Part shown: piece by piece, positions 6,738 to 31,899 of the stretch | How the letters are laid out: the number at the start of each line of letters is the position of its first letter | Numbering within the stretch: position 1 is the stretch's first letter | Virus record (IMG/VR): IMGVR_UViG_3300045996_000175 | Coordinates: 1 to 32,071 of that record | Source: a virus | Direction: 5' to 3' (one strand) | DNA length: 32,071 nucleotides | Made by a program: the position numbers and the translations under genes | Notes under the pieces: generated by a model | What the model was told of the DNA's origin: nothing | What the model saw: only the letters and a program-made list of their open reading frames with translations | Database searches by the model: none

Positions 6738-7751
6738 ATGGCAATGCTTTCAGGCACGACGGTCAGCTACGGCGTGACCTCTGCGGGTGGTATGCGTGAA
6801 GACCTCTCGGACGTGATCTTCGATCTCTTCCCTGAGGACACGTGGGCACTGACCCACTTCGACCGTGAGGAGGCCAATTCCACCTATACGGAATGGCTCG
6901 CTCAGGAACTGGCGGCTCCGGGTGCCAACGCCCGCGAGGAAGGCAACGACGCGAGCTTCACCTCGCTGACCTCGCCCACTCGGTACGGCTCCTATCTCCA
7001 GATCAGCGACAAGACGTTCCTCGTCTCCGACTCGTTGGAAGCGGCGACGAAGGCCGGCCGTAAGTCCGAACTCGCTCGGGGTGCCATCGTCAAGATGCGC
7101 GAACTCAAGCGGGACATGGAATATACGATCATGGGCCGCCAGATTTCGACCGAAGGCGGTGCCGGTACGGCCCGCACGACGGCCGGCATCGAGGCGTGGA
7201 TCGGTGACGCCACGGCGTCGGCCGGTGGCCCGTCGCACGTCGTTCTGGCAACGACCACGTCGAGCTACACGACCCCGCCGGTGACGAGCGGCAAGCCGGG
7301 CACGGCCACCACGATCGGCTCGACGCCGACCACGGGTGCCTTCACCTCGGCCTCGCTCAACTACGCCCTTCAGCAGGCGTGGGAGCAGGGTGGCGATGCG
7401 CGCGTGATCCTGGCGATGGCCGGGCAGAAGCGTGCGATCGACGCCTTCACCTCGGTTGCCACGCGCTTCGTGGACGTGGGCCGTGCGAACGAGGCGTCCA
7501 TCACGGGCGCTGCCAACCTGTACGTGTCGGACTTCGGTCGCCATCAGGTGATCCTGAACCGCTACGGTCAGGCGGGCATCGTGCTGTGCCTCGATCCGTC
7601 GTACTGGGCCGTGCGCTACCTGCGTAAGCCGCTCAAGCGTGAGCTGGCTCGCACGGGTGACGCGGTCAAGTACCAGATCGTCACGGAATGGGCGCTGGTT
7701 GCTCGCAACTGGAAGGCCAACGCGAAGGTCGTGGGCTGCGCCGACGCGTAA
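6738..7751 (+). CDS. Major capsid protein, SU10/DUF5309 type
   Basis: This 337-aa protein is the main shell subunit. The N-terminal pattern GGMREDLSDVIFDLFPEDT followed by a WLAQELAAPGANAREEGNDA segment, then SYLQISDKTFLVSDSLEAATKAGRKSELA and ELKRDMEY, matches the SU10-like (DUF5309) capsid family, which has the HK97 fold. The C-terminal part ends with YQIVTEWALVARNWKANAKV, also typical. A Ser/Thr/Gly-rich insertion lies at about residues 160-200. Ribosome site AAGGAA lies upstream of the ATG. It ends in TAATG with the next gene, so the glycosyltransferase that follows may be co-translated with the most abundant virion protein. Confidence 0.93.
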   Translation: MAMLSGTTVSYGVTSAGGMREDLSDVIFDLFPEDTWALTHFDREEANSTYTEWLAQELAAPGANAREEGNDASFTSLTSPTRYGSYLQISDKTFLVSDSLEAATKAGRKSELARGAIVKMRELKRDMEYTIMGRQISTEGGAGTARTTAGIEAWIGDATASAGGPSHVVLATTTSSYTTPPVTSGKPGTATTIGSTPTTGAFTSASLNYALQQAWEQGGDARVILAMAGQKRAIDAFTSVATRFVDVGRANEASITGAANLYVSDFGRHQVILNRYGQAGIVLCLDPSYWAVRYLRKPLKRELARTGDAVKYQIVTEWALVARNWKANAKVVGCADA

Positions 7752-8257
7752 TGCTGGTGATTGTCGGGCACGGCCCTAGCGTCGTCGGAAAGGCGCTAGG
7801 GTCATGGCTCGACGGGCAGACGGTCGTTCGGCTGAAACATGCTGAACGACCGAATGCCGTGGACTGGGGGACTCGCACGGATTACGTCTGTGCGAGTTCT
7901 CCCTCGTTCTGGACCGACAAGCGACGACCGGATTTCCCCGATGCGGAGTGCTGGGTACTGGCTGACAAGGCCGTCCCTAAAGGCACGTGGCGCATCGCAG
8001 ACCGCAAGTGGCTCGACCACTACCGGACGTTCAATCCGTCGTTTCCTAAGCCCTCTACGGGGCTCAAGGCTGTCTTTTGCGCGATGGAGTTCCTGGCCCC
8101 GAGTGAGATCGGGCTGCTGGGGTTCGATCGCATCCTGCGACCCGACGTGCCGACCTCGAAGTGGTGGCACGAACCGGGCAAATATCTATATGGCCACGAT
8201 GCCCACGCCGAGCATCGTTGCCTGACTACGCTAGGCGTGCAGATCACGGAGCTGTGA
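7751..8257 (+). CDS. GT29-like (sialyltransferase-fold) transferase
   Basis: The 168-aa product starts at ATG 7751, overlapping the capsid stop by one base; longer upstream starts would run deep into the capsid gene. The N-terminus LVIVGHGPS (2-10) and WGTRTDYVCAS (39-49) resemble the nucleotide-sugar binding motif of glycosyltransferase family 29. KPSTGLKAVFCAMEFLAPSE (100-119) with GLLGFDR corresponds to the conserved 'STG' region, and GHDAHAEH (148-155) offers a candidate catalytic histidine. The protein is short for GT29 but similar compact forms occur in phages. Donor and acceptor cannot be told from sequence. It opens a cassette of glycan and methyl enzymes. Confidence 0.68.
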   Translation: MLVIVGHGPSVVGKALGSWLDGQTVVRLKHAERPNAVDWGTRTDYVCASSPSFWTDKRRPDFPDAECWVLADKAVPKGTWRIADRKWLDHYRTFNPSFPKPSTGLKAVFCAMEFLAPSEIGLLGFDRILRPDVPTSKWWHEPGKYLYGHDAHAEHRCLTTLGVQITEL

Positions 8258-8620
8258 ATGGCTGAGTTCCTCGACTTCGATCCTCACACGGGCATCGCGC
8301 ATTACTTCTCGCACGACGAGATGACCAACGAATCGAAGATCCATTACGTACAGGACGTGCAGCCGATTGTGGATTACGCCAAGTCCCTCGCGAACAAGGG
8401 TGGGACCGACAAGGGCATCAAGGCCGGCTGGTGGAAGTACGCGATCATCCCGGCCATCGTGCAGGTGCAGTTGAAGCAGAAGGGCATCGACTTGAACGAC
8501 CCCGGCTCCACGAAGCGGATCATCGAAGAGATCAACACGAACTACCCGCACCTGAAATGCACGCAGAAGTCCGACGGCGGCAAGCTCAAGCAGTTTTTCG
8601 TGGTGGGCGATGCTAAGTAA
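8258..8620 (+). CDS. Conserved phage protein of unknown function
   Basis: This 120-aa protein (MAEFLDFDPHTGIAHYFSHD...) starts immediately after the previous TGA. It has a central segment VQDVQPIVDYAKSLANKG and KGIKAGWWKYAIIPAIVQVQ, then a helical IDLNDPGSTKRIIEEINTN tail. I recognise this pattern as one recurring in phage structural regions but know no function. It overlaps the next gene by 11 bases. A small virion or assembly factor is as likely as a role in the surrounding modification cassette. Confidence 0.75.
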   Translation: MAEFLDFDPHTGIAHYFSHDEMTNESKIHYVQDVQPIVDYAKSLANKGGTDKGIKAGWWKYAIIPAIVQVQLKQKGIDLNDPGSTKRIIEEINTNYPHLKCTQKSDGGKLKQFFVVGDAK

Positions 8621-10040
8621 GCAGGAACACCGCGACCTCGTTCGCGCCCGTGAGTTGTGGGAGCGCGACAAGGTAGACGACGCATGGGCGCTGGTGCAGA
8701 AGCTCATGCTGGAGCACCCCTTCGATGCGGTGCTCTGCCAGATGGGCGGGCACATCTACGAGAAGGCCGGGAACATGCCGGTCGCCTATCACCTGTTCCG
8801 CACCGCGACAGAGCAGGATCCCCGAGAGGCGACGAACTGGCTCAACTTCGGCCGGGTGGCCGAGGAACTGTGGCGCACCAGTGAGGCTGAGCGTGCGTAC
8901 CAGAAGGCGCTCAAGTACGCCAATCGCGACGAGACGATCCGCTGCACCTACGGCAACCTGTCCGCGCTGTGCATCGATAACGCCCGCTATAAGGAAGCCG
9001 AGGAGTGGGCGCGCAAGTGCCTCGACCGCTGGCCGGATGATGCGCAGACCCTCGCGAACCTGGGCTTCGCGCAACTCGGTCTCCAGAACTGGAAAGAGGG
9101 CTGGAAGAACTACCGCAATATCCTCGGTTCCCTTGCGCGCACGAAGATGCAGTACGCCGGGGAACCGGAGTGGGATGGAACCCCCGGCAAGACGGTCGTG
9201 CTCTACGGCGAGCAGGGGATTGGCGACGAGATCAGCTTCGCCTCGATGGTTCCCGATGCGGTCAGGGACTGCAAGAAGGTCATCCTCGACTGTGACGTGA
9301 GGTTAGCCAACCTGTTCCAACGGTCCTTCCCGCAGGCGAAGGTCTACGGCACCCGCAAGGTGAAGCCGTACTCCGAGAAACCCCTGAAGTGGATGCCCGA
9401 GGATCGCGAGTTCGATGCGTCGCTGGCGGTGGGGCAGATCGGGGAGTACTACCGAACAGACACCTCGGACTGCCCCGGCACGCCTTACCTCGTCGCAGAC
9501 CCCGAGCGGGTGCTGATGTGGAAGTCGCTGTGGGCCACGAAGAAGAAGCCCGTCATCGGCATCGCGTGGCAGGGCGGTATCCCGAAGACCGGCGCGCACA
9601 TGCGTCGCTGGACGCTCGAAACCCTGCTCCCGGTGCTGCGCTCCGTCGATGCCCACTGGGTCGTGCTGGAGTACAAGCCGGCCGGTGGTGAGCTGGACGT
9701 GTTCCGCGCCAAGTATCCCGAGATCGACATTCGGGAATACCCCCACGCGACGCTCACCAAGGACTACGACGACACCGCTGCGCTCGTGGCCTCACTCGAC
9801 CACGTGTTCTGCATCCAGACCGCCGTGGCGCATCTGGGCGGGGCGCTTGGGGTTCCCACGTGGGTCTGTGTCCCTCCCTGCTCACAGTGGCGCTATGGCT
9901 CCGAGGGTGAGTCGATCCCCTGGTACAAGTCCGTGCGAGTCATTCGCCAGACCAAGGGCCAGTGGAATTTCGCAACGATGGCCGAGGAATTGCGTGCTCA
10001 TTTCAGCCGACTATCAGAAGCAGCAACAAGAGCTGCATGA
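8610..10040 (+). CDS. TPR-glycosyltransferase fusion
   Basis: A 476-aa protein with two parts. Residues 5-170 are a run of about four tetratricopeptide repeats (AYHLFRTATEQDPREATNWL, EAERAYQKALKYA, EAEEWARKCLDRWPDDAQTL), which usually bind protein partners. Residues 195-455 resemble a GT-B glycosyltransferase of the GT9/GT41 kind: GEQGIGDEISFASM (200-213), GIAWQGG (317-323), and DHVFCIQTAVAHLGGALGVP (397-416), the segment that in heptosyl- and O-GlcNAc-type enzymes forms the donor site. TPR plus GT-B is the layout of protein O-glycosyltransferases and of many bacterial TPR-GTs. A protein acceptor, possibly a virion protein, is an inference. Confidence 0.82.
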   Translation: MLSKQEHRDLVRARELWERDKVDDAWALVQKLMLEHPFDAVLCQMGGHIYEKAGNMPVAYHLFRTATEQDPREATNWLNFGRVAEELWRTSEAERAYQKALKYANRDETIRCTYGNLSALCIDNARYKEAEEWARKCLDRWPDDAQTLANLGFAQLGLQNWKEGWKNYRNILGSLARTKMQYAGEPEWDGTPGKTVVLYGEQGIGDEISFASMVPDAVRDCKKVILDCDVRLANLFQRSFPQAKVYGTRKVKPYSEKPLKWMPEDREFDASLAVGQIGEYYRTDTSDCPGTPYLVADPERVLMWKSLWATKKKPVIGIAWQGGIPKTGAHMRRWTLETLLPVLRSVDAHWVVLEYKPAGGELDVFRAKYPEIDIREYPHATLTKDYDDTAALVASLDHVFCIQTAVAHLGGALGVPTWVCVPPCSQWRYGSEGESIPWYKSVRVIRQTKGQWNFATMAEELRAHFSRLSEAATRAA

Positions 10041-10572
10041 CACCGGTGGCTATGGGGGCATGGGTCAATCCCCCTATGGCGACATGGTGGCGCAGATGAT
10101 TAACCGGCTGGAGGTGGGTCACGTCCTCGATTACGGATGTGGCTCCCGCCTCTCGCTCGCGAAGGCGTTGACCGGCAAGGTCGAACACGGCTTCAAATAC
10201 CAGGCTTATGACCCGTGCGTAGAAAAGTACGCAACACCACCCATCCCGGCAGAGATGGTGGTGTGCCTTGACGTTCTGGAACACATCGAAGAGGACTGCA
10301 TCGATGAGGTGCTGGATCACCTGATGCGGCTGACGGAGTCGGTGGGGTTCTTCTCCATCGACACCGGTCCCGCAGTGAAGCACCTCCCCGACGGCAGGAA
10401 TGCCCATGTTCTTCAGCGACCCCCGGAATGGTGGTTGCCCCGGCTCATGTGTCGCTTCGATGTCCAGACGTATCAGGTGGTGTGGAAGGACGACGGCCAC
10501 TACAAGTTCTACGTGGTGGTCAACGCCTATCCGCGCCAGATAGAGGATACCGACGGAAATAAACTCAGTTGA
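9994..10572 (+). CDS. Class I SAM-dependent methyltransferase
   Basis: The start is placed at GTG 9994 (MLISADYQKQQQELHD), which has GAGGA six bases upstream; it overlaps the end of the TPR-GT gene by 47 bases. The 192-aa product has motif I VLDYGCGSR (44-52), the SAM-binding glycine loop, and CLDVLEHIEE (91-100), the motif IV equivalent often seen in small-molecule or sugar methyltransferases. A later FFSIDTGPAVKHLPDGRNAH stretch fits the fold's post-motif strand. The substrate is unknown; the neighbours suggest a glycan. It ends in a TTGA overlap with the radical SAM gene. Confidence 0.8.
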   Translation: MLISADYQKQQQELHDTGGYGGMGQSPYGDMVAQMINRLEVGHVLDYGCGSRLSLAKALTGKVEHGFKYQAYDPCVEKYATPPIPAEMVVCLDVLEHIEEDCIDEVLDHLMRLTESVGFFSIDTGPAVKHLPDGRNAHVLQRPPEWWLPRLMCRFDVQTYQVVWKDDGHYKFYVVVNAYPRQIEDTDGNKLS

Positions 10573-11522
10573 CCATTACCCAGAGAATCGACGCCACCAC
10601 ACACATTCCTGCCACGTACCGCCACCCGATCGTTCCCGCTCCCCGGAGCGTGAAGATCGAGATCACTGGACGGTGCAACCTGCGCTGCTCGTTCTGCTCC
10701 CTGAGAACGCGCGACGCGCAGCCGAAAGACGACATGGACTTCGCGCTGTTTCAGCGCATCACGGAGGAGATGAGGACTGCCGGGGTTGACGAGATCGGGG
10801 TGTTCTACCTCGGTGAGTCGTTCATGGCCCCGCATCTGCTGATCGACTGCATCAAGTGGGTCAAGAAGCTGGGGTTCCCCTACGTCTTCCTGACCTCGAA
10901 CGCCTCTCTCGCCAGACCCGAGTTTGTCGAGTCGTGCATGAAGGCTGGATTGAACAGCCTCAAGTGGTCCGTGAATGCCTCCGACCCGGAGCAGTACAAG
11001 ACCCTGATGCAGGTGTCGCCCAAGTATTTCCACAAGTCGCTGGAGAACATCAAGGCGGCATGGGAAGTGCGAGAGCGCGGTGGCTACAAGTGCGGACTGT
11101 ATGCCTCGTCCATCCAGTACGACGGCGAGCAGGCCGAGCGGATGCAGGCGCTCTTGAACGAGCACGTGAACCCGTATGTGGACGAGCACTACTTCCTGCC
11201 GCTCTTCGGGCAGATGACGCAGCAGACAGAGGAGAGGAGCCGTGAACTCGGGTTCGTGCCGACGGCCGGCAACCAGGGCCGCGTTGGGGCCTTGCGGGAG
11301 CCGCTGCCTTGCTGGGCGGTCTTCACCGAAGGTCACGTTACGGCGAAGGGCATCCTGTCGGCCTGCTGCTTCGATGCAGACGGCCGCTTTGGGATGGGAG
11401 ACCTTACTCGTCATAGTTTTGCCGACGCTTGGAATTCCCCCGAGTTCCAGGCACTGAGATCGGCGCACCTCCGCAAGGACGTGAAGGGAACGGTCTGCGA
11501 GGGGTGCATGGCCTATGGTTGA
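10569..11522 (+). CDS. Radical SAM/SPASM enzyme
   Basis: This 317-aa enzyme starts at TTG 10569, overlapping the previous TGA. The radical SAM cluster motif is CNLRCSFC (C36, C40, C43), preceded by SVKIEITGR and followed by VFYLGESFM (78-86), a GGE-like motif. The C-terminus carries C248, C266-C267 and C310/C313 in PCWAVFTEGH, GILSACCFDADGRFGMGDL and GTVCEGCMAYG. These fit a SPASM-type auxiliary Fe-S cluster domain, and HSFADAWNSPEFQALR is the usual linker helix. SPASM enzymes modify peptides, amino sugars and other small molecules by 5'-deoxyadenosyl radical chemistry. No precursor peptide is apparent nearby. The reaction is unknown; a part in glycan modification is inferred from neighbours. 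Confidence 0.87.
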   Translation: MTITQRIDATTHIPATYRHPIVPAPRSVKIEITGRCNLRCSFCSLRTRDAQPKDDMDFALFQRITEEMRTAGVDEIGVFYLGESFMAPHLLIDCIKWVKKLGFPYVFLTSNASLARPEFVESCMKAGLNSLKWSVNASDPEQYKTLMQVSPKYFHKSLENIKAAWEVRERGGYKCGLYASSIQYDGEQAERMQALLNEHVNPYVDEHYFLPLFGQMTQQTEERSRELGFVPTAGNQGRVGALREPLPCWAVFTEGHVTAKGILSACCFDADGRFGMGDLTRHSFADAWNSPEFQALRSAHLRKDVKGTVCEGCMAYG

Positions 11523-12111
11523 GGCAGGAGGGTTCCTCTGGACCGCTGCCGGGGCCAAGTGGTGCGCTTCTGCGTTGCTGCGGGACGTGGCAGACATCGA
11601 GCGTTGGCTCGCCTACCCGATCCGGCGGCGTGAGTGCGTGCAGGCCGGCGCGAACGTCGGGGTGTACCCAAAAGCACTGGCCGCGCACTTCGAGACGGTC
11701 TACGCGGTCGAACTCGACCCCGACAACTTCGCTTGCCTCAAGGCCAACGCGATGCCTGCCAACGTGCGGGCGTTTCACGGGGCCTTGGGTGAGCGGGCGG
11801 GCAAGGTGGGGATGCACGCATCGCTCCCCATCTCGCACTACGTCGAGGGCAGCGGGGACATCCCGGTCGTCACCATCGATGATTTCGGGCTGACGCGCTG
11901 CGACCTGATCGCACTGGACGTGGAGGGGTACGAACTCCCGGCACTCAAGGGGGCGGAGCAGACGCTTGAGCGGTGCCGCCCGGTGCTCGTGATCGAGACG
12001 AAGGGGCACGGCGAGCGATACGGCTACAGCGACGAGGACTTGGCGCAGTGGTTACAGGATCGCGGCTACACCTACGCCGAGACGATCGGCAACGACGCGG
12101 TGTGGGCATGA
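11515..12111 (+). CDS. FkbM-family methyltransferase
   Basis: A 198-aa SAM-dependent methyltransferase starting at ATG 11515, inside the last codons of the radical SAM gene. Motifs are VQAGANVGVYPKALA (SAM loop, 42-56), YAVELDPDNFACLKAN (acidic ribose contact at E65), VVTIDDFGL (118-126), and LIALDVEGYELPALKGAE (131-148), the LKIDVEGxE signature of FkbM enzymes, then PVLVIETKGH. FkbM enzymes O-methylate polyketides and sugars in many glycan clusters. The next gene starts in an ATGA overlap. Confidence 0.86.
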   Translation: MVEAGGFLWTAAGAKWCASALLRDVADIERWLAYPIRRRECVQAGANVGVYPKALAAHFETVYAVELDPDNFACLKANAMPANVRAFHGALGERAGKVGMHASLPISHYVEGSGDIPVVTIDDFGLTRCDLIALDVEGYELPALKGAEQTLERCRPVLVIETKGHGERYGYSDEDLAQWLQDRGYTYAETIGNDAVWA

Positions 12112-12794
12112 TCCCGCTCTACGTGGGGTTCGACCAGCGCGAGGCGATTGCCTTCCACGTCTTCGTCCAGTCGGTCGTGGAGCACTCATCCGTGCCCGTG
12201 CAGTTCATCCCGCTGCACGGGCCGATGCTGCGACATTTCGACGGCCAGCGAGACGGGACCAATGCGTTCATCTTCTCGCGCTACCTGATCCCCTCGCTGC
12301 AGGGGTTCAGGGGTTGGGCCATCTTCGCCGACGGCGACATGTTGTGTCGCACCGACATCGCCGAGTTGTGGCGATTGAGGGACGAACGCTACGCCGTGCA
12401 GGTGGTGCAGCACGACTACCAGACCAGTCACCCGAGGAAGTATCTAGGTACTCCCTTGGAGAACGACAACGTCGATTATCCGAGGAAGAACTGGTCCTCG
12501 CTCGTGCTGTGGAACTGCGCCCACCCGTCCAACCGGATTCTCTCGCGGGAGTTCGTGGAGGACGCGGGCGGGATCTTCCTGCACCGCTTCCAGTGGCTGC
12601 GGGACGATGAGATTGGTTCTCTACCGCTGACGTGGAACTGGCTCGTTCGGGAGTATCCCGATGCCGAGCCGCAACTGGCCCACTACACCCTTGGGGTGCC
12701 TGGGTTCGCTGAGTACCGCAACGACGACGGCGGGGAGTGGATGCACACCCTGTCGCGCGCCCTGCACCTGGAAGGCACCAAATGGCCTATGTGA
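12108..12794 (+). CDS. GT8-like glycosyltransferase
   Basis: The 228-aa product starts at ATG 12108 (ATGA overlap). The N-terminus IPLYVGFDQREAIAFHVFVQ and the following NAFIFSRYLIPSL precede FADGDMLCR, where D75-x-D77 is a DXD-type metal/nucleotide-sugar motif, with DIAELWRLRDE behind it. Later LVLWNCAHPSNRIL and HYTLGVPGFAEY fit the acceptor side of GT-A enzymes related to family 8. It closes the modification cassette; the next gene starts 13 bases inside its end and returns to virion morphogenesis. Donor sugar unknown. Confidence 0.8.
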   Translation: MIPLYVGFDQREAIAFHVFVQSVVEHSSVPVQFIPLHGPMLRHFDGQRDGTNAFIFSRYLIPSLQGFRGWAIFADGDMLCRTDIAELWRLRDERYAVQVVQHDYQTSHPRKYLGTPLENDNVDYPRKNWSSLVLWNCAHPSNRILSREFVEDAGGIFLHRFQWLRDDEIGSLPLTWNWLVREYPDAEPQLAHYTLGVPGFAEYRNDDGGEWMHTLSRALHLEGTKWPM

Positions 12795-13165
12795 CGAACG
12801 CCGAACTGCAGCAACTGGTCGCCGAGAAGCTGGGGCTTGTTCCCACCGGACAGACCGTGGCCGCTGACGACGGTGCCAAGATCGGCGAAACCCTCGTGGG
12901 ATTGCAGGAGCAATTGGCGCAGGAGCGCATCGCGTTCTTCGATGTCAATACCGGGGTGGATCCGGCGTATCAGGAACCGCTGGTCGCAATGGCTGCGGCG
13001 CATCTGGTGGACGACTTCGGCATCGCCGAACCGAGACGGTCGCAACTGGAGGCCAAGGGGTTGCTCGGGATGCCGGGGCGCTCATGGGCCGAGCGGCGCA
13101 TCCGGGCTCTTGCCGATGCACCGACCACGAAGCTCGCGACCACGATCGACTTCACGCCGCAGTAA
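12782..13165 (+). CDS. Head-tail adaptor candidate (P22 gp4-like position)
   Basis: The 127-aa protein starts at ATG 12782, overlapping the glycosyltransferase end; an in-frame upstream start would lengthen this overlap. It is helical and mostly acidic (AELQQLVAEKLG, PAYQEPLVAMAAAHLVDDFG, EPRRSQLEAKGLLG). Position directly before the gp10-like gene matches that of tail accessory/adaptor proteins which extend the portal in short-tailed phages. The assignment rests on gene order and size, not on a specific motif. Its TAA overlaps the next ATG. Confidence 0.6.
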   Translation: MAYVTNAELQQLVAEKLGLVPTGQTVAADDGAKIGETLVGLQEQLAQERIAFFDVNTGVDPAYQEPLVAMAAAHLVDDFGIAEPRRSQLEAKGLLGMPGRSWAERRIRALADAPTTKLATTIDFTPQ

Positions 13166-14475
13166 TGCTCCCCGTCGCCTCCTATAACCTGCCCTCGCGT
13201 AACAGCGGCAGGCTTCTGAACTGCTGGGCGCAGGCTTCGACGGGCAAAACCCCCGTCGAGGTCGTGGGCTTCCCCGGCGTGGCCTCTGTGCGCTCGCTGG
13301 GGGCTCCAGGGCGGGGTTTAGTCGTCTCGGGCGACCGTGTCTACGCCCTCGCTGGGAATACGCTCTATGACGTTGTGACGGGCGCTGCCGAGGGCACCGT
13401 TCCGGGTGGCGGGACGCTCATGTTCGCCCCCGTGGTGGGCGGCTTCGTGACCGACAACGGCTACCTCTTCACTGGCTCGGTGACTGCGATCACCGACGTG
13501 GACAAGGTGCCGTGGAGTGCGGTCGGTTTTGTCGATGGCTACGTGGTGGCGGTCGAGTCGGGGACGGGTCGCTTTGTCGGTTCAGCATTGAACGATGCGA
13601 CCTCGTGGGACGGGCTTTCGTTCGCCACGGCCGAAGGCTCACCGGATGACCTCGTGACGCTGGTGGTCGATCACCGGCAGGTGATCCTGTTCGGTCACGA
13701 ATCGACCGAGGTGTGGTGGAACTCCGGTGCCTCGGGCTTCCCGTTTGAACGCACTGCGTCGGGCTTCATCGAGATGGGATGCCTCGCGCGCTTAGGTGTG
13801 ACGAAGGCCGACAACTCGGTCTTTTGGCTTGCCTCGGACAGGACGGTGCGTCGTCTGTCGGGACAAACGCCGGTCAGGGTCAGTCAGATCGGGGTCGAGG
13901 AAGCCCTATCGTCATATTCGATGCTGGCCGACTGTGAGGCGTTCAGTTTCACGTGGAACGGCAACATCCACGTCGTCTTCCGCTTCCCGACCGAAGGCAA
14001 GACGTGGGTGTTCAACGTCACCACCTCCGAGTGGTGGGAGTCGGACATTCCCATTGTTGCGGCAGCGCAGCTCCAGGGCCGCACCTACGTGCAGCACAGC
14101 AATGGAACCGTTGGGTATCTCACCGAGAGCGTGCAGACGCAGTTTGGTGCCAATCCTCGGCGCGAGGTGACGTTCCAGAACCTGTATTCAGGTCAGGCGC
14201 GGGTCTTCTATAGCCAAGTGGATTTCGTGTTCCGCACCGGGACAGCACCGGCTGGAGTCATCCCCCACGTCTCGCTCGACGTGAGCCACGACGGCGGCAA
14301 TACGTGGCACTCGCTCCCGGTCAGGGAGTTGGGGCGCACGGGTGAATACGCGCACGCCGTCCGCTGGAATCGTCTCGGAAGTGGCAGGGACACGGTGTTT
14401 CGCCTGTTCTGTGGCGATGCGGTGCCGTTCCACCTGATCGACGCGCAGGTTGATGCTGTCGGAGGCGCGAAGTAA
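13165..14475 (+). CDS. P22 gp10-like tail hub / DNA stabilisation protein
   Basis: A 436-aa beta-propeller-like protein starting at ATG 13165 (TAATG). P22 gp10 plugs the portal with its partners after packaging and forms the tail hub. Matching features are the repeated short beta blades, VYALAGNTLYDV, VGFVDGYVVAVESGTGRFVG, FATAEGSPDDLVTLVVDHRQ, STEVWWNSGASGFPFERTAS and SVFWLASDRTVRRLSG, which follow the pattern of the Phage_stabilise family in order. The length is close to that of gp10 (about 470 aa). Neighbouring adaptor and ejection genes agree. Confidence 0.87.
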   Translation: MLPVASYNLPSRNSGRLLNCWAQASTGKTPVEVVGFPGVASVRSLGAPGRGLVVSGDRVYALAGNTLYDVVTGAAEGTVPGGGTLMFAPVVGGFVTDNGYLFTGSVTAITDVDKVPWSAVGFVDGYVVAVESGTGRFVGSALNDATSWDGLSFATAEGSPDDLVTLVVDHRQVILFGHESTEVWWNSGASGFPFERTASGFIEMGCLARLGVTKADNSVFWLASDRTVRRLSGQTPVRVSQIGVEEALSSYSMLADCEAFSFTWNGNIHVVFRFPTEGKTWVFNVTTSEWWESDIPIVAAAQLQGRTYVQHSNGTVGYLTESVQTQFGANPRREVTFQNLYSGQARVFYSQVDFVFRTGTAPAGVIPHVSLDVSHDGGNTWHSLPVRELGRTGEYAHAVRWNRLGSGRDTVFRLFCGDAVPFHLIDAQVDAVGGAK

Positions 14476-19644: not shown

Positions 19645-21507
19645 ATGGCCGGCACGCCTTACATTCCCGTCAGACAGGTTCGCGTCAACAGCACCGGCCG
19701 CCCCCATGCAGGGGCGAGGGCTTACTTCTACGATGCCGGCACCACGTCCGCCCGGAGCGTCTACACCTCCGCCGCGCGGACGGTCGCACATACCAACCCC
19801 GTCGTCGCCAATGCCGCCGGGCTGTTCCCCGCGATCTACCTGGACCCCGCCTACAACTACCGCTGCATCACGCAGACGAGCGCCGGGGTGGCAATAGACG
19901 ACGAGGACAACATCCCCGGAACGAGCGTCACTGCAGACCAAGTGGGCCTTGCGCTCTACCCCCGCACCGACACCGAGGTCTCGGCGGGAGTCACCCCGGT
20001 CAATTACCAGTACCCGCCGGGCAACGTGCGCCGCTACGGGGCCGAGGGGGACGGCACGACGGACGACACCGCTGCATTCCTTGCCGCCTCGCAGTCAAGC
20101 GCCAACGTGGACGTGCCCGACGGCACCTACTACGTGGACGGGCTCGTGGTCGGGGAGGGCGTCCACATCTCAGGCGCGGGCACGATCAAGACCGGCAGCG
20201 AGGAGTTGATCGCGCTCCCGATGGTCAACCTCCGCCGCGACGACTCCGTGATGCGGGTCATGTTCGCCGAGTCCAATGACCTCGGATGGGAGGAGATGCT
20301 CGACATCAAGGCGTGCGGGTACAACACGATCATGGTGTACCTGTGGCACGTCGATCTGGACGACGTGATCTACAACGCCGAGGCCGTGGGGCTTAAGGTA
20401 CTGGTCCACTCGCGCATCGTCTCGGGCAACATCGCACAAGCCTCGACCCTTGCCGCTGCGGCGACTGCCTACGACGCCCGCCCCTCGGTCGTGGGCTATT
20501 ACGTGTTCGATGAGCCGGTCGGGAACAGCATCTCGGTCGGGGATCAGGACACCGTCATCACGGCGTTCCGTGCGCTCACGTACAAGCCGCTCTTTTGCGC
20601 CGAGTTCACGGTGGTCTATGCCACCACCGGCTACCTGTCGGAGAACTACGACGGCATCTTTATCGACTCGTACTACCCGACCTCCTCCAGCACCGCGAAC
20701 GATTCGCTCGCCGCGTACATCCGCTGTGCGGTGGCCTACGGCACGACGGCCCAGCGGGCGCGAATCATCCCGCTGGTCGGGCTGTTCAACGATTCCGGGT
20801 TCACCAAGTCCACCACGCTCACGCGGCAACTGGCCGAGACGCTGGTCAAGTTCTCGAAGGACGGCAGCTTCGGCGCGTTCTGCTGGAATGCGGGCACTGC
20901 GGGCACCTACGAGGGCATTCGCAACACCGCCGTCTATCGCGCGAGCGCCAAGCGGCTCGGGGCCATTGCGAGCGGGCAGAAGCCCTACACCATCGACCTG
21001 ATCCCGATCGGTACGCAGTTCTCCTCCTCCAACGCGCTCGATCGGCGTTGGGTCAACTGCGTCGATGGTGCATCCCCGAACGTCATCGGGGAATCGAACC
21101 TCGTGCCGTGGTACGTCGCAGACGTGAACCTCGCCACGGACGACCGCGAGCAGGACTTCACAGACAACGGGCTGATGCTGCAGGGCACCTCGGGGCAGGT
21201 CGGCTTTGCCGGTGCGCCCTCGGGAATTTGCTGCGGCATCCTGTACTGGGATGACCGCGACGTGACCGACGACGACTGCACGGTTGTCCTGGGCTCCTCC
21301 TCCACCAACGGTTACACGATGAGCGAGGAAATCTCGCAGGCCATCGTGAACGGTGCGGGCGCTGCGTTCTACGGGCAACTCGATTCGGGTGGGGACTTCT
21401 GGAAGATGCCCGTGTTGCGGGTGGACGTGGATAGCGCGGTCGCCTTCCCGTACTGCTTCGTCAAGGGATATCTGGCCTTCACGGACGTGCCGGAGGTCAA
21501 CTTCTGA
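19645..21507 (+). CDS. Tailspike with TIM-barrel-like hydrolase centre
   Basis: A 620-aa protein. Residues 1-125 look like a head-binding domain: TGRPHAGARAYFYDAGTTSA, NPVVANAAGLFPAIYLDPAY and a Tyr/Arg-rich beta end. Residues 128-200 hold VRRYGAEGDGTTDDTAAF, the opening of pectate-lyase-type tailspikes, and a few beta coils (VDVPDGTYYVDGL). The sequence then changes: MRVMFAESNDLGWEEMLDIK (from about 203), CGYNTIMVYLWHVDL, VVGYYVFDEPV (about 282) and YDGIFIDSYYP (about 335) follow alternating strand-helix order with acidic residues at strand ends, like a glycoside hydrolase TIM barrel. From about 450 a beta-rich C-terminus follows. Spikes of this type cut host surface polysaccharide; the substrate is unknown. 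Confidence 0.78.
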   Translation: MAGTPYIPVRQVRVNSTGRPHAGARAYFYDAGTTSARSVYTSAARTVAHTNPVVANAAGLFPAIYLDPAYNYRCITQTSAGVAIDDEDNIPGTSVTADQVGLALYPRTDTEVSAGVTPVNYQYPPGNVRRYGAEGDGTTDDTAAFLAASQSSANVDVPDGTYYVDGLVVGEGVHISGAGTIKTGSEELIALPMVNLRRDDSVMRVMFAESNDLGWEEMLDIKACGYNTIMVYLWHVDLDDVIYNAEAVGLKVLVHSRIVSGNIAQASTLAAAATAYDARPSVVGYYVFDEPVGNSISVGDQDTVITAFRALTYKPLFCAEFTVVYATTGYLSENYDGIFIDSYYPTSSSTANDSLAAYIRCAVAYGTTAQRARIIPLVGLFNDSGFTKSTTLTRQLAETLVKFSKDGSFGAFCWNAGTAGTYEGIRNTAVYRASAKRLGAIASGQKPYTIDLIPIGTQFSSSNALDRRWVNCVDGASPNVIGESNLVPWYVADVNLATDDREQDFTDNGLMLQGTSGQVGFAGAPSGICCGILYWDDRDVTDDDCTVVLGSSSTNGYTMSEEISQAIVNGAGAAFYGQLDSGGDFWKMPVLRVDVDSAVAFPYCFVKGYLAFTDVPEVNF

Positions 21508-27722: not shown

Positions 27723-27749
27723 TCTAAGGTTCTAAGGTCTATCTAAGAC
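27723..27749. repeat. TCTAAGRY repeats beside attP
   Basis: TCTAAGGT occurs at 27723-27730 and 27731-27738 back to back, and TCTAAGAC at 27742-27749. They lie between the att core and the integrase stop codon, where arm-type integrase or excisionase binding sites are often found. GGTCT/AGACC (27736-27740 and 27746-27750) also forms a small inverted repeat. Confidence 0.5.
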
Positions 27750-28701
27750 CGCTGACTCTCTGGCGACGTACGTATACGGAGAGCATCCCATGTCCGTGTC
27801 CCAGAATATTTCCTGCGGCGTCACTAGCGGCCTTGGCTCGGATATCGTGAAAGTGCCAGCTAGCTCGAAGCCGCTTCCACGCCGTCTGTAAGCCGCCCAT
27901 AGTCCAGGGCTCTCCAAAGCGATTAGTAAGAACGTGTCCTCCTGCCCGTCGAGCTTGGCGGTGACGGCGCGGGTCTGCGGGGCGGGCGGCGATAGACTCT
28001 TGCCGAGCAAGTCCACGGCTGACAAAGAAGCGGAGAGCTTCAGTCCACCCGACGATGCGGAGCTTTCCCGTTTTCGCTTCATTGATGTGAATTCCATCCT
28101 CTCGCAAATCCTCGCGCCTCAAGGCGCGCAGTTCGCCCTGACGGGCACCAGTGAGCAGGGCCAGCGCCAAAACGTCCTGTAGCGGCTCTGGCGCGGCCTC
28201 AAAGGCTTCTAAGAATTCGGCGTCCGAGACGTACCGGCGGCGGGGCTGTTCCTTGTTCCGCCGGACCCCACGGCAGGGATTGCCGTTCGCCCAGCCCTGA
28301 CGCATGGCGAACTCGTAGGCCGAACTCAGCACGGCGCGCTCCCGGTTCCCCATGTGCGGGTGGCCGTCGCGTTTCCGCTTTTCGAGGTACTGCGCGACGT
28401 GAGAATGCGTGAGCGCGACGATGGGCATCCCGCCGAAGTGGTGAGCCAGCCGGGTGTCGGCAATGCGCTCATATTCTAGGCGCGTTCCGTCGGTGACTTC
28501 CGCGGAGGGCAGGTAGACCGCCAATAGCTCCGAGATCGTATGGGGAGGTTTGCCCGTAGGTGTTTCGCGCAGGGCTCGGCGTAGTGCCGTCAGTCCCTCG
28601 TCCACCCTGGTCAGCGCGATCCAGCGGTTTCGCACGACGCGATACCACCGGCCGTTTTTCTGGTAGACCCCCTTCGGGATCGTTGAGCGTGAATCCGTCA
28701 T
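27739..28701 (-). CDS. int: Tyrosine recombinase (phage integrase)
   Basis: The 320-aa protein is taken from ATG 28701 (MTDSRSTIPKGVYQKNGRWY); a GTG three codons earlier is possible. The N-terminal segment resembles the arm-binding part, and residues 55-145 the SAM-like core-binding domain. The catalytic residues are in place: R187 in TGARQGELRALR, K210 or K213 in NEAKTGKLRIV, H285-x-x-R288 in FHDIRAKAASD, H302 in ILGHGHG and Y310 in SVYVRR. It catalyses site-specific recombination between attP and a host tRNA-Lys gene. The gene points toward attP, a common prophage arrangement. Confidence 0.93.
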   Translation of the reverse strand: MTDSRSTIPKGVYQKNGRWYRVVRNRWIALTRVDEGLTALRRALRETPTGKPPHTISELLAVYLPSAEVTDGTRLEYERIADTRLAHHFGGMPIVALTHSHVAQYLEKRKRDGHPHMGNRERAVLSSAYEFAMRQGWANGNPCRGVRRNKEQPRRRYVSDAEFLEAFEAAPEPLQDVLALALLTGARQGELRALRREDLREDGIHINEAKTGKLRIVGWTEALRFFVSRGLARQESIAARPADPRRHRQARRAGGHVLTNRFGEPWTMGGLQTAWKRLRASWHFHDIRAKAASDAAGNILGHGHGMLSVYVRRQRVSGLR

Positions 28702-28864
28702 CGGCAGCACGCTGCAACTTTCGGTTCAGTGCGTCAAGGGTCGTGAATGGCTTGCCGTCCGCGTCCCTGATGTAGGACACCCCCTCGCGCTTCAGCCACG
28801 CCTTGACGGCCGTGGGCTTGGTAAGCCCCGACAGGCGCTGCAGCTTTGCGAAGGTGAGAATCAC
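28469..28864 (-). CDS. DUF4224-like protein upstream of integrase
   Basis: GTG 28864 starts VILTFAKLQRLSGLTKPTAV then KAWLKREGVSYIRDADGKPF-TTLDALNRKL. This is the pattern of the short DUF4224 proteins usually encoded just before phage integrases (about 60-80 aa; possible DNA-binding or recombination directionality helpers). The open frame runs on to 28469, 233 bases into the integrase gene, giving 131 aa. The extra Arg/Pro-rich tail looks like an out-of-frame shadow of integrase, so the natural end may be lost or shifted. Weak ribosome site. Confidence 0.6.
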   Translation of the reverse strand: MILTFAKLQRLSGLTKPTAVKAWLKREGVSYIRDADGKPFTTLDALNRKLQRAADDGFTLNDPEGGLPEKRPVVSRRAKPLDRADQGGRGTDGTTPSPARNTYGQTSPYDLGAIGGLPALRGSHRRNAPRI

Positions 28865-28884: not shown

Positions 28885-29337
28885 CTATGCCGCAGACCGC
28901 TGCTGCTTGGCGAGTCTGTCGTACAGGACGACGTTCACGCAGGCGGCGAGGTTCATGCAGTATTTCGTCGGCACCTGGACCGACCACTTACAGCGGTCCG
29001 TGATGGCCTTGCCGAGCGTGCCGTCCTCGGGGCCGAAGATGTAGAACGCCCGCTCCGGGTGCGTGAAGTTCACGAGGTTCTTCGCGTTCGGCACGAGGTC
29101 CACAGCGACCGGGATGCAGTCGTATGGCACGGCCTCGAACACGTCCTCGATCCGCAGGACCGGCATATGCCGATAGGACTTCTGCGTGTCCGTGGGGAGC
29201 CGCCCCATGTACCGCTCGGGACGGTGGCCGCTGATCGCCACCAGCGCGGCGTCGTAGCAGCCAGCGGCACGCAGGACGCTGCCCACGTTCGCGCCGTTCT
29301 TCGGGTTCACCAGACCAATAGCCGCAAAGCCTCTCAC
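28885..29337 (-). CDS. SPOUT-family RNA 2'-O-methyltransferase
   Basis: A 150-aa protein from GTG 29337 (GTGA overlap). It shows the three SpoU/TrmH motifs: AAIGLVNPKNGANVGSVLRA (motif 1, with N and R), AFYIFGPEDGTLGKA (motif 2) and VPTKYCMNLAACVNVVLYDR (motif 3), which together build the knotted SAM site. Its size is that of TrmL-type enzymes, which methylate the tRNA wobble ribose. A tRNA or other RNA substrate is inferred. It occurs here between early genes and the DUF4224/integrase pair. Confidence 0.85.
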   Translation of the reverse strand: MRGFAAIGLVNPKNGANVGSVLRAAGCYDAALVAISGHRPERYMGRLPTDTQKSYRHMPVLRIEDVFEAVPYDCIPVAVDLVPNAKNLVNFTHPERAFYIFGPEDGTLGKAITDRCKWSVQVPTKYCMNLAACVNVVLYDRLAKQQRSAA

Positions 29338-30988: not shown

Positions 30989-31243
30989 CTAGAACGGTAT
31001 TGAGTCATCGAAGGGCGCGTCATTGACCGGCGCGGAAGACGGCGGGGCGGCGGCAGTGCGTGGGGCCTGCGCCTCACCACCGAAGAACTTCTCCCCGGTC
31101 TGCCCGTTGGTCTTGACCCAGTACGAGAGATAGATCGGGCCTTTGTTGCAGTACGGGCAGGTATCGACCTTGCCCCGGTACTCGGGCTGTCGTTCGTTCT
31201 CGCGCCGGTCGTTCTTGCCGACGGTTGTGTTGATCTTGCTCAT
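30989..31243 (-). CDS. Small protein with SSB-like acidic tail
   Basis: The 84-aa product from ATG 31243 (ATGA overlap with ERF) has RQPEYRGKVDTCPYCNKGPI with one CxxC pair, then YLSYWVKTNGQTGEKFFGGE and an Ala/Pro linker ending NDAPFDDSIPF. The C-terminal DDSIPF matches the acidic tip (DDDIPF) through which bacterial SSB recruits partners. But the protein is far too short for a normal OB fold plus linker. It may be a mini ssDNA-binding or partner-competing protein working with ERF. Confidence 0.62.
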   Translation of the reverse strand: MSKINTTVGKNDRRENERQPEYRGKVDTCPYCNKGPIYLSYWVKTNGQTGEKFFGGEAQAPRTAAAPPSSAPVNDAPFDDSIPF

Positions 31244-31899
31244 GCCACCACCGCCTGCGCCGCCTTCGCGGCATCAATGATCGTTTTGGACCAAGACCGC
31301 ACGTCGCTGGGCAGCAAGTCCCAAGCGTTGCGGTATGCCTCCTCGCCCTCGGCGTGGAGGTCGAGATGAAGCTGCCACAGCTTTTTTGTGTCCTTCTTTT
31401 GGAAGGCGGCCTTGAAGTTACTGGCGTACAACTGCGCCGAGATGGTCGCGTCCGTAACGCCCATCGGATCGTGAACGCCGATGCCCGTGGCTGCGCCGGG
31501 CTTGCCGGTCGCCTGATTGGCGTCGTCGTCCTCGTCGCCCACCACGTTCGCGACCGCCATCAGGTGATAGCGCCGGGCGTAGGTCGCCGCAGAGCCGAAT
31601 CCCTGCGCGTCACCCTTGCTGACGGGCATCTCCAGCGGCCCGAAGGTCAACGCCTCACCAGAGCCGTGGTAGAGCGACGTGGTGCAAGCCACACGCCCGC
31701 CTTCGGTGGTGTAGACGTTCTGGATGCAGGCGATGCCGTGCTTCGACAGGACGGGGATGACCGCATCGCGAACTGCCGCCAGCGAGGCAAACTTGTTCTT
31801 GAAGTGCGGGTTCGTCTTGTCGAACCTGGGGTTGGACATCTCGCCCTGCGCCTTGGCGAGGGCTTCGGCCAGTTTGCCGGTGGTGCCGATGACTTCCAT
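31240..31899 (-). CDS. erf: ERF-family single-strand annealing protein
   Basis: A 219-aa recombinase from ATG 31899. The N-terminal NPRFDKTNPHFKNKFASLAA, VRDAVIPVLSKHGIACIQNV, the DAQGFGSAATYARRYHLMAV segment and the acidic VVGDEDDDA follow the ERF family core in order. The C-terminal third is helical (KKLWQLHLDLHAEGEEAYRN). ERF-type proteins anneal complementary single strands, supporting recombination-dependent replication and circularisation of phage DNA. Its partner may be the SSB-tail protein encoded just downstream. Confidence 0.9.
   Translation of the reverse strand: MEVIGTTGKLAEALAKAQGEMSNPRFDKTNPHFKNKFASLAAVRDAVIPVLSKHGIACIQNVYTTEGGRVACTTSLYHGSGEALTFGPLEMPVSKGDAQGFGSAATYARRYHLMAVANVVGDEDDDANQATGKPGAATGIGVHDPMGVTDATISAQLYASNFKAAFQKKDTKKLWQLHLDLHAEGEEAYRNAWDLLPSDVRSWSKTIIDAAKAAQAVVA

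Follow-up and report, generated by a model that had tools for sequence, protein, structure and literature searches.

The DNA analysed here (hereafter, the window) is a stretch of 32,071 nucleotides from a virus, comprising positions 1 to 32,071 of IMG/VR record IMGVR_UViG_3300045996_000175, and its head gene block contains a cassette of predicted glycosyltransferase (GT), methyltransferase and radical S-adenosylmethionine (SAM) genes that may serve to decorate the virus particle. Inspection of the open reading frames (ORFs) in the window places seven of them, A to G, on the plus strand at 7751-12794 with overlapping or touching junctions, between a gene for a major capsid protein of the SU10_MCP type upstream (6738-7751, plus strand; PF17236, E-value 1.5e-75; phrog_1328) and a phrog_578 head-closure gene downstream; the seven genes are those that a first-pass annotation of the same DNA had described. 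In order, A (7751-8257) encodes a GT29-like glycosyltransferase with a predicted sialyltransferase fold, B (8258-8620) a LUZ24-lineage head-module protein, C (8610-10040) a glycosyltransferase with a TPR part and a GT-B fold, D (9994-10572) a class I SAM methyltransferase, E (10569-11522) a radical SAM/SPASM enzyme, F (11515-12111) an FkbM-family methyltransferase, and G (12108-12794) a glycosyltransferase of the GT-A type. Promoter- or terminator-like sites within the cassette region did not exceed chance, and no cassette protein has a typical membrane segment (maximum KD19 1.48). A search of phage records with the whole cassette DNA gave zero matches, and so there is no cultured close relative.

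The backbone into which these genes are set is the head module of LUZ24-lineage podoviruses rather than that of P22 itself, the phage against which the gene order had initially been read. The order portal, small gene, scaffold, capsid gene, B and tubular-A-like connector recurs in phiM5, SL4, Venkman, Lyrsu01 and several uncultured phages, and the module, with its SU10-type capsid, is shared with LUZ24-like phages and phiGT1 (PMC10386132). The B proteins of the window, SL4 and MW202496 match phrog_3982, and because B follows the capsid gene also in phages without the cassette, we rejected it as a cassette member. In most LUZ24-lineage phages, including most relatives without C, B directly abuts the connector gene, whereas the window has C-D-E-F-G inserted at this junction and A between the capsid gene and B. 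The cassette proper is these six genes, and the earlier idea that all seven form one unit does not hold, since B belongs to the head module and the presence of A, E and F is optional.

The core enzyme and its partners

Sequence and structure models agree with the first-pass domain calls for C, D, E and F. In C, Pfam finds a TPR match (PF23914, 1e-14); only TPR models match at E 0.1, and the curated models Glyco_transf_41 and Glyco_transf_9 are not reached. The predicted structure, with a mean predicted local distance difference test score (pLDDT) of 93.9, consists of a TPR solenoid of ten helices followed by a GT-B fold. Foldseek ranks SPINDLY first for this model, with XcOGT and OGT also leading the list, and VIA Z is 17.7 for XcOGT, 17.6 for GT9 and 15.8 for TibC; the root-mean-square deviation from XcOGT is 10.4, indicating that the orientation of the domains differs. 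OGT, SPINDLY and TibC are protein glycosyltransferases.

An N-terminal TPR part joined to a C-terminal GT-B domain is also the architecture of FlmG of Caulobacter, a soluble, cytoplasmic enzyme whose TPR part binds flagellin and which is required and sufficient for flagellin modification (PMC7591256). Homologs of C adjoin flagellin genes in Phenylobacterium and Caulobacteraceae loci, and C is ~30% identical to the proteins of these flagellin-motif-adjacent loci, though in a separate clade. C further departs from FlmG in its location in a phage head operon, in its shorter TPR part (~180 versus 313 residues), and in being accompanied by methyltransferases and further transferases. Across 80 bacterial C loci, a flagellin N-terminal motif lies within ~8 kb in 13 and a homolog of G is present in about a quarter. 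Seven bacterial clusters (L052, L054, L055, L057, L058, L082 and L087) have TPR-GT genes, often in tandem, paired with a G homolog, with T2SSE or PglL genes close to L052, L087 and L058.

D matches Methyltransf_23 (2e-7). Its start is placed at the GTG at 9994, which has a Shine-Dalgarno sequence and gives an overlap of 47 nt with C, because conserved N-terminal homology precedes the first in-frame ATG (10060). The D genes of relatives likewise start upstream of the C stop, and in many of them the C frame extends into the conserved D N-terminus in another frame, with an overlap of ~80 nt or more. E, which starts with TTG, matches Radical_SAM (PF04055, 4e-13) and SPASM (PF13186, 2e-11), both above cut-off, and contains the CX3CX2C core of radical SAM enzymes in the form CNLRCSFC. 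F matches FkbM (PF05050, 8e-18) and, above cut-off, TIGR01444.

For the two outer glycosyltransferases, the first-pass names stand in part. G is GT8-like, contains a DGD motif and matches phrog_28018, but its score against Glyco_transf_8 (PF01501) is 19.3 bits, below the cut-off of 24.3, and from its sequence G is best labelled GT8/GT24-like. A has no match in Pfam, PHROG or NCBIfam, a sequence search against the PDB found nothing, and its placement comes from the fold search alone. The AlphaFold model of A (pLDDT 90) has ST8SiaIII, ST6GALNAC2, ST3Gal-I and CstII as top Foldseek matches, and VIA Z is 12.2 to CstII (GT42) and 12.1 to ST3Gal-I (GT29), with non-sialyltransferases at 9.2 or below. 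By fold, A fits GT29 and GT42 equally well. In 19 A sequences HxxxxE (H149, E154 in A) is invariant and GxGPS and KPSxGL are conserved, motifs that we take to be sialyl motifs. Given the absence of a sequence-model match, the modelled structure allows A to be called GT29-like only.

Conservation and exchange among related phages

A first set of relatives comprises 43 contigs that share a related capsid gene; wherever the contig reaches far enough, this gene is followed by B, C, D and G, with the last three arranged as C-D-G or C-G-D. Searching with a profile of C yielded at least 560 confirmed matches, and from the best 80 of these we analysed 72 viral loci, a sample that is biased to close relatives and in which a few loci are second views of contigs in the 43-contig set. 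Among the 72 loci, counting those with room, B lies upstream of C in 58 of 58 and the capsid gene in 50 of 50, while downstream D is found in 41 of 41, G in 39 of 41 and the connector in 40 of 41; all cassette and neighbor genes are on one strand. The recurrence of C, D and G at one place in dozens of independent contigs is not due to chance, and the order of these core genes is conserved in related phages. The other enzymes are less constant: A is present in 19 of the 72 loci (about a quarter), E in five, and another GT-A gene in three, and F, absent from all 72, occurs in one further relative (L007). C, D and G therefore form the core, with A, E, F and additional transferases present in some relatives and missing from others.

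Divergence of C follows that of the capsid protein, with a Mantel rho of 0.63 (p 0.001), as does that of B (0.68) and scaffold (0.67); the value is 0.54 for D and 0.36 for the connector gene. Phage C sequences form one clade in a tree of 107 rows. Fixed in place, forming a single clade in phages and co-varying with the capsid gene, C does not show the recent, scattered insertions without co-conservation that the first-pass annotation had named as contrary to its view. A reading that fits these sequence comparisons is that C is ancestral and vertically kept and that the outer enzymes have been exchanged. An Acidobacteriota contig (the phylum of a Pyrinomonadaceae metagenome-assembled genome) runs through genes for aspartokinase, CarD, ALAD and homoserine dehydrogenase into terL, portal, capsid, B, C, connector and Hc3 genes; this prophage carries C without the remaining cassette genes, showing that C can stand without them. 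MW202512 (L045, 7057-12284) has a capsid gene of an unrelated family (PF13252) and yet carries C-HNH-D-G ahead of a homologous connector gene, which suggests capsid replacement or transfer of the module. Homing-endonuclease-like genes, which could help to move cassette genes, lie among the cassette genes at L003:14805-15278, L031:11056-11610, L045:10415-10891 and L005:13930-14385. In another relative, a 166-amino acid protein with an Ig-like, Hoc-like C-terminal part is encoded between the capsid gene and B (L018:11069-11569) and is likely a decoration protein in the cassette region.

The junction between B and the connector is also occupied in a sister lineage, which we sampled through its capsids (80 loci, 76 of them with both neighbors in reach). 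In 74 of these 76 contigs a different, unrelated GT-A transferase lies between B and the connector (loci including L046, L047, L207, L219, L220 and L233-L312). All 20 diverse members sampled match Anp1, and profile matches in the PDB are to A197 of Sulfolobus turreted icosahedral virus (STIV) and to yeast Mnn9. A197 (PDB 2c0n) is the best PDB sequence match of this enzyme and, like it, is a viral GT-A enzyme; it comes from an archaeal virus and is kin of the sister-lineage transferase, not of C. The presumed substrate of STIV A197 is the STIV capsid protein, which is glycosylated. That two unrelated transferases occupy one position argues that the slot selects for glycosyltransferase activity and was not filled by chance insertion, and the sister-lineage enzyme is possibly a second type of virion glycosylation. 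At even odds, we suggest more broadly that one podovirus lineage has a slot between B and the connector gene that is dedicated to glycosyltransferases and was filled independently by an FlmG-like TPR-GT with exchangeable tailoring genes and by an Anp1-like GT-A enzyme, and that the shells of these phages carry lineage-specific, rapidly diversified methylated glycans made by flagellin-type cytoplasmic O-glycosylation.

Downstream of G, a 127-amino acid protein is encoded at the connector position (12782-13165, plus strand). The name head-tail adaptor given to it in the first-pass annotation is a label of position only: no homology to the tubular-A-like connector of relatives was detectable, and we rejected the possibility that it is a shortened tubular-A protein (hhalign probability 0.7%). 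The swap of the tubular-A-like connector for this gene is seen only in the window and its close relatives L002 and L003. The downstream boundary is the gene for the head closure/stabilisation protein Hc3 (13165-14475, plus strand; phrog_578, 2e-71), whose ORF is open from 13084 and whose ATG at 13165 overlaps the stop of the preceding gene. Elsewhere in the window, genes for an integrase (27739-28710, minus strand), an ERF recombinase (31240-31899, minus strand) and a pectate-lyase-like tailspike (19645-21507, plus strand) mark the phage as a temperate podovirus. A SpoU-type RNA methylase domain (PF00588, 1e-13; 28885-29337, minus strand), unusual for a phage, lies within a minus-strand block.

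A model for virion glycosylation and its alternatives

Taken together, these observations point to a module for O-glycosylation of virion proteins in the head operon, in which C would glycosylate a virion protein, probably the capsid protein, while the other enzymes would extend, methylate or oxidise the glycan; we give this model a probability of about 0.72. In the model, C would be made late, together with the capsid protein. Its TPR arm would bind a freshly synthesised virion protein, with the capsid protein as the most likely candidate, and the GT-B domain of C would put the first sugar on Ser/Thr residues in the cytoplasm, as FlmG does on flagellin. Further sugars would be added by G and, where present, by A, which might transfer a nonulosonic acid from a CMP-linked donor; methylation of hydroxyls would fall to D and F, and E would alter a sugar by radical chemistry. 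Because the cassette contains no nucleotide-sugar synthesis gene, the donor sugars would be supplied by the host. The glycan might serve as camouflage, as a binding surface or as protection, and the combination of a C, D, G core with swapped A, E, F and extra transferases implies that related phages would bear different glycans on the same shell.

Decoration of the virion itself has precedents, and the modification is therefore less singular than the first-pass annotation had supposed. According to PMC12619734 (citing Freeman et al. 2023), mycobacteriophage capsids and tail tube subunits carry glycans, and these particle glycans are linked to phage-encoded glycosyltransferases. Here, too, phage glycosyltransferases lie in the structural gene block, and the cassette would be a variant of this known phenomenon. 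Its core is a TPR-GT in a LUZ24-lineage head module, accompanied by methyl and radical-SAM tailoring genes. Among the open-licence papers searched, none describes such a TPR-GT cassette within the head module of a podovirus, and the paper on the phiGT1 head module (PMC10386132) has no mention of "glycosyl".

Several observations weigh against this model. Among bacterial sequences, phage C is nearest not to the flagellin-associated clade but to TPR-GT clusters of betaproteobacteria, with genes for PglL/O-antigen ligase or T2SSE in the vicinity of two of these clusters, and the analogy with FlmG is therefore one of architecture. The divergence of G is nearly independent of that of the capsid protein (rho 0.11), and exchange has, to judge from the sequences, been more frequent for G than for C. 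Phages with C have a longer Ser/Thr-rich loop in the capsid protein (21 versus 13 Ser/Thr). Phylogeny confounds this difference, and the longer loop is missing from L051 and L158, which also carry C; as a marker of the acceptor, we therefore take the loop as a hint only. Finally, detection in the particle is not indicated for the phiM5 homolog of B, making B no obvious acceptor.

The most serious refinement of the model, itself a case of virion glycosylation, is that the glycan is placed on tail or connector proteins (tailspike, connector or ejection proteins), where it would adjust adsorption instead of shielding the capsid. The cassette lies between capsid and connector genes, so that either neighbor is a possible acceptor, and mycobacteriophage tail tube subunits are glycosylated as well (Freeman et al. 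2023, in the citation by PMC12619734). We nevertheless consider this version unlikely, for no abundant acceptor is nearer than the capsid protein, with which C co-varies at rho 0.63, compared with 0.36 for the connector gene. Abundance, proximity and co-variation with C together make the capsid protein the first-choice acceptor.

Less likely still is a role at the host surface, which the enzymes would remodel in lysogens or at a late stage of infection to block superinfection or alter adsorption, with the site in the head operon providing only late expression. O-antigen loci often contain enzymes of the GT29, GT8, FkbM and methyltransferase families, which speaks for such a role, as do the PglL/Wzy_C gene near the bacterial C relative L058 and the signs of lysogeny: the window phage has an integrase and ERF, and an integrase match in six of 16 records indicates that some of these phages are temperate. 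Serotype converters would, however, be expected to bring parts of the flippase, GtrA or O-acetylase type, none of which is in the cassette, and the invariant position in the head module, the FlmG-like core enzyme, the lack of membrane-type hydrophobic segments in the cassette proteins, and the unrelated glycosyltransferase in the same slot of the sister lineage all favor the virion as target. Of the two targets initially entertained, decoration of the virion is thus preferred and change of the host surface is less likely. Highly improbable is glycosylation of phage DNA bases as a hypermodification against restriction, which is disfavored by the location of the genes in the head block and by the absence of a thymidylate synthase/hydroxymethylase-type gene (PF00303) from 16 records of 32-48 kb, some of them perhaps fragments, and TPR-GT, GT29 and GT8 are, to our knowledge, not families of DNA glycosyltransferases. 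There is precedent for hypermodification of DNA by phage glycosyltransferases (Pyle et al. 2024, in the citation by PMC12619734).

If the virion glycosylation model is correct, glycosylation of the particle would be a standing trait of large, mostly uncultured podovirus lineages of soil and water rather than an oddity of mycobacteriophages, and the TPR-guided cytoplasmic O-glycosylation of flagella would have a counterpart on virus capsids. With one fixed core enzyme and swappable tailoring enzymes, these phages would offer a clean system in which to study what sugars on a phage particle do, be it in environmental binding, stability or avoiding recognition, and in which to ask how the choice of acceptor is programmed.

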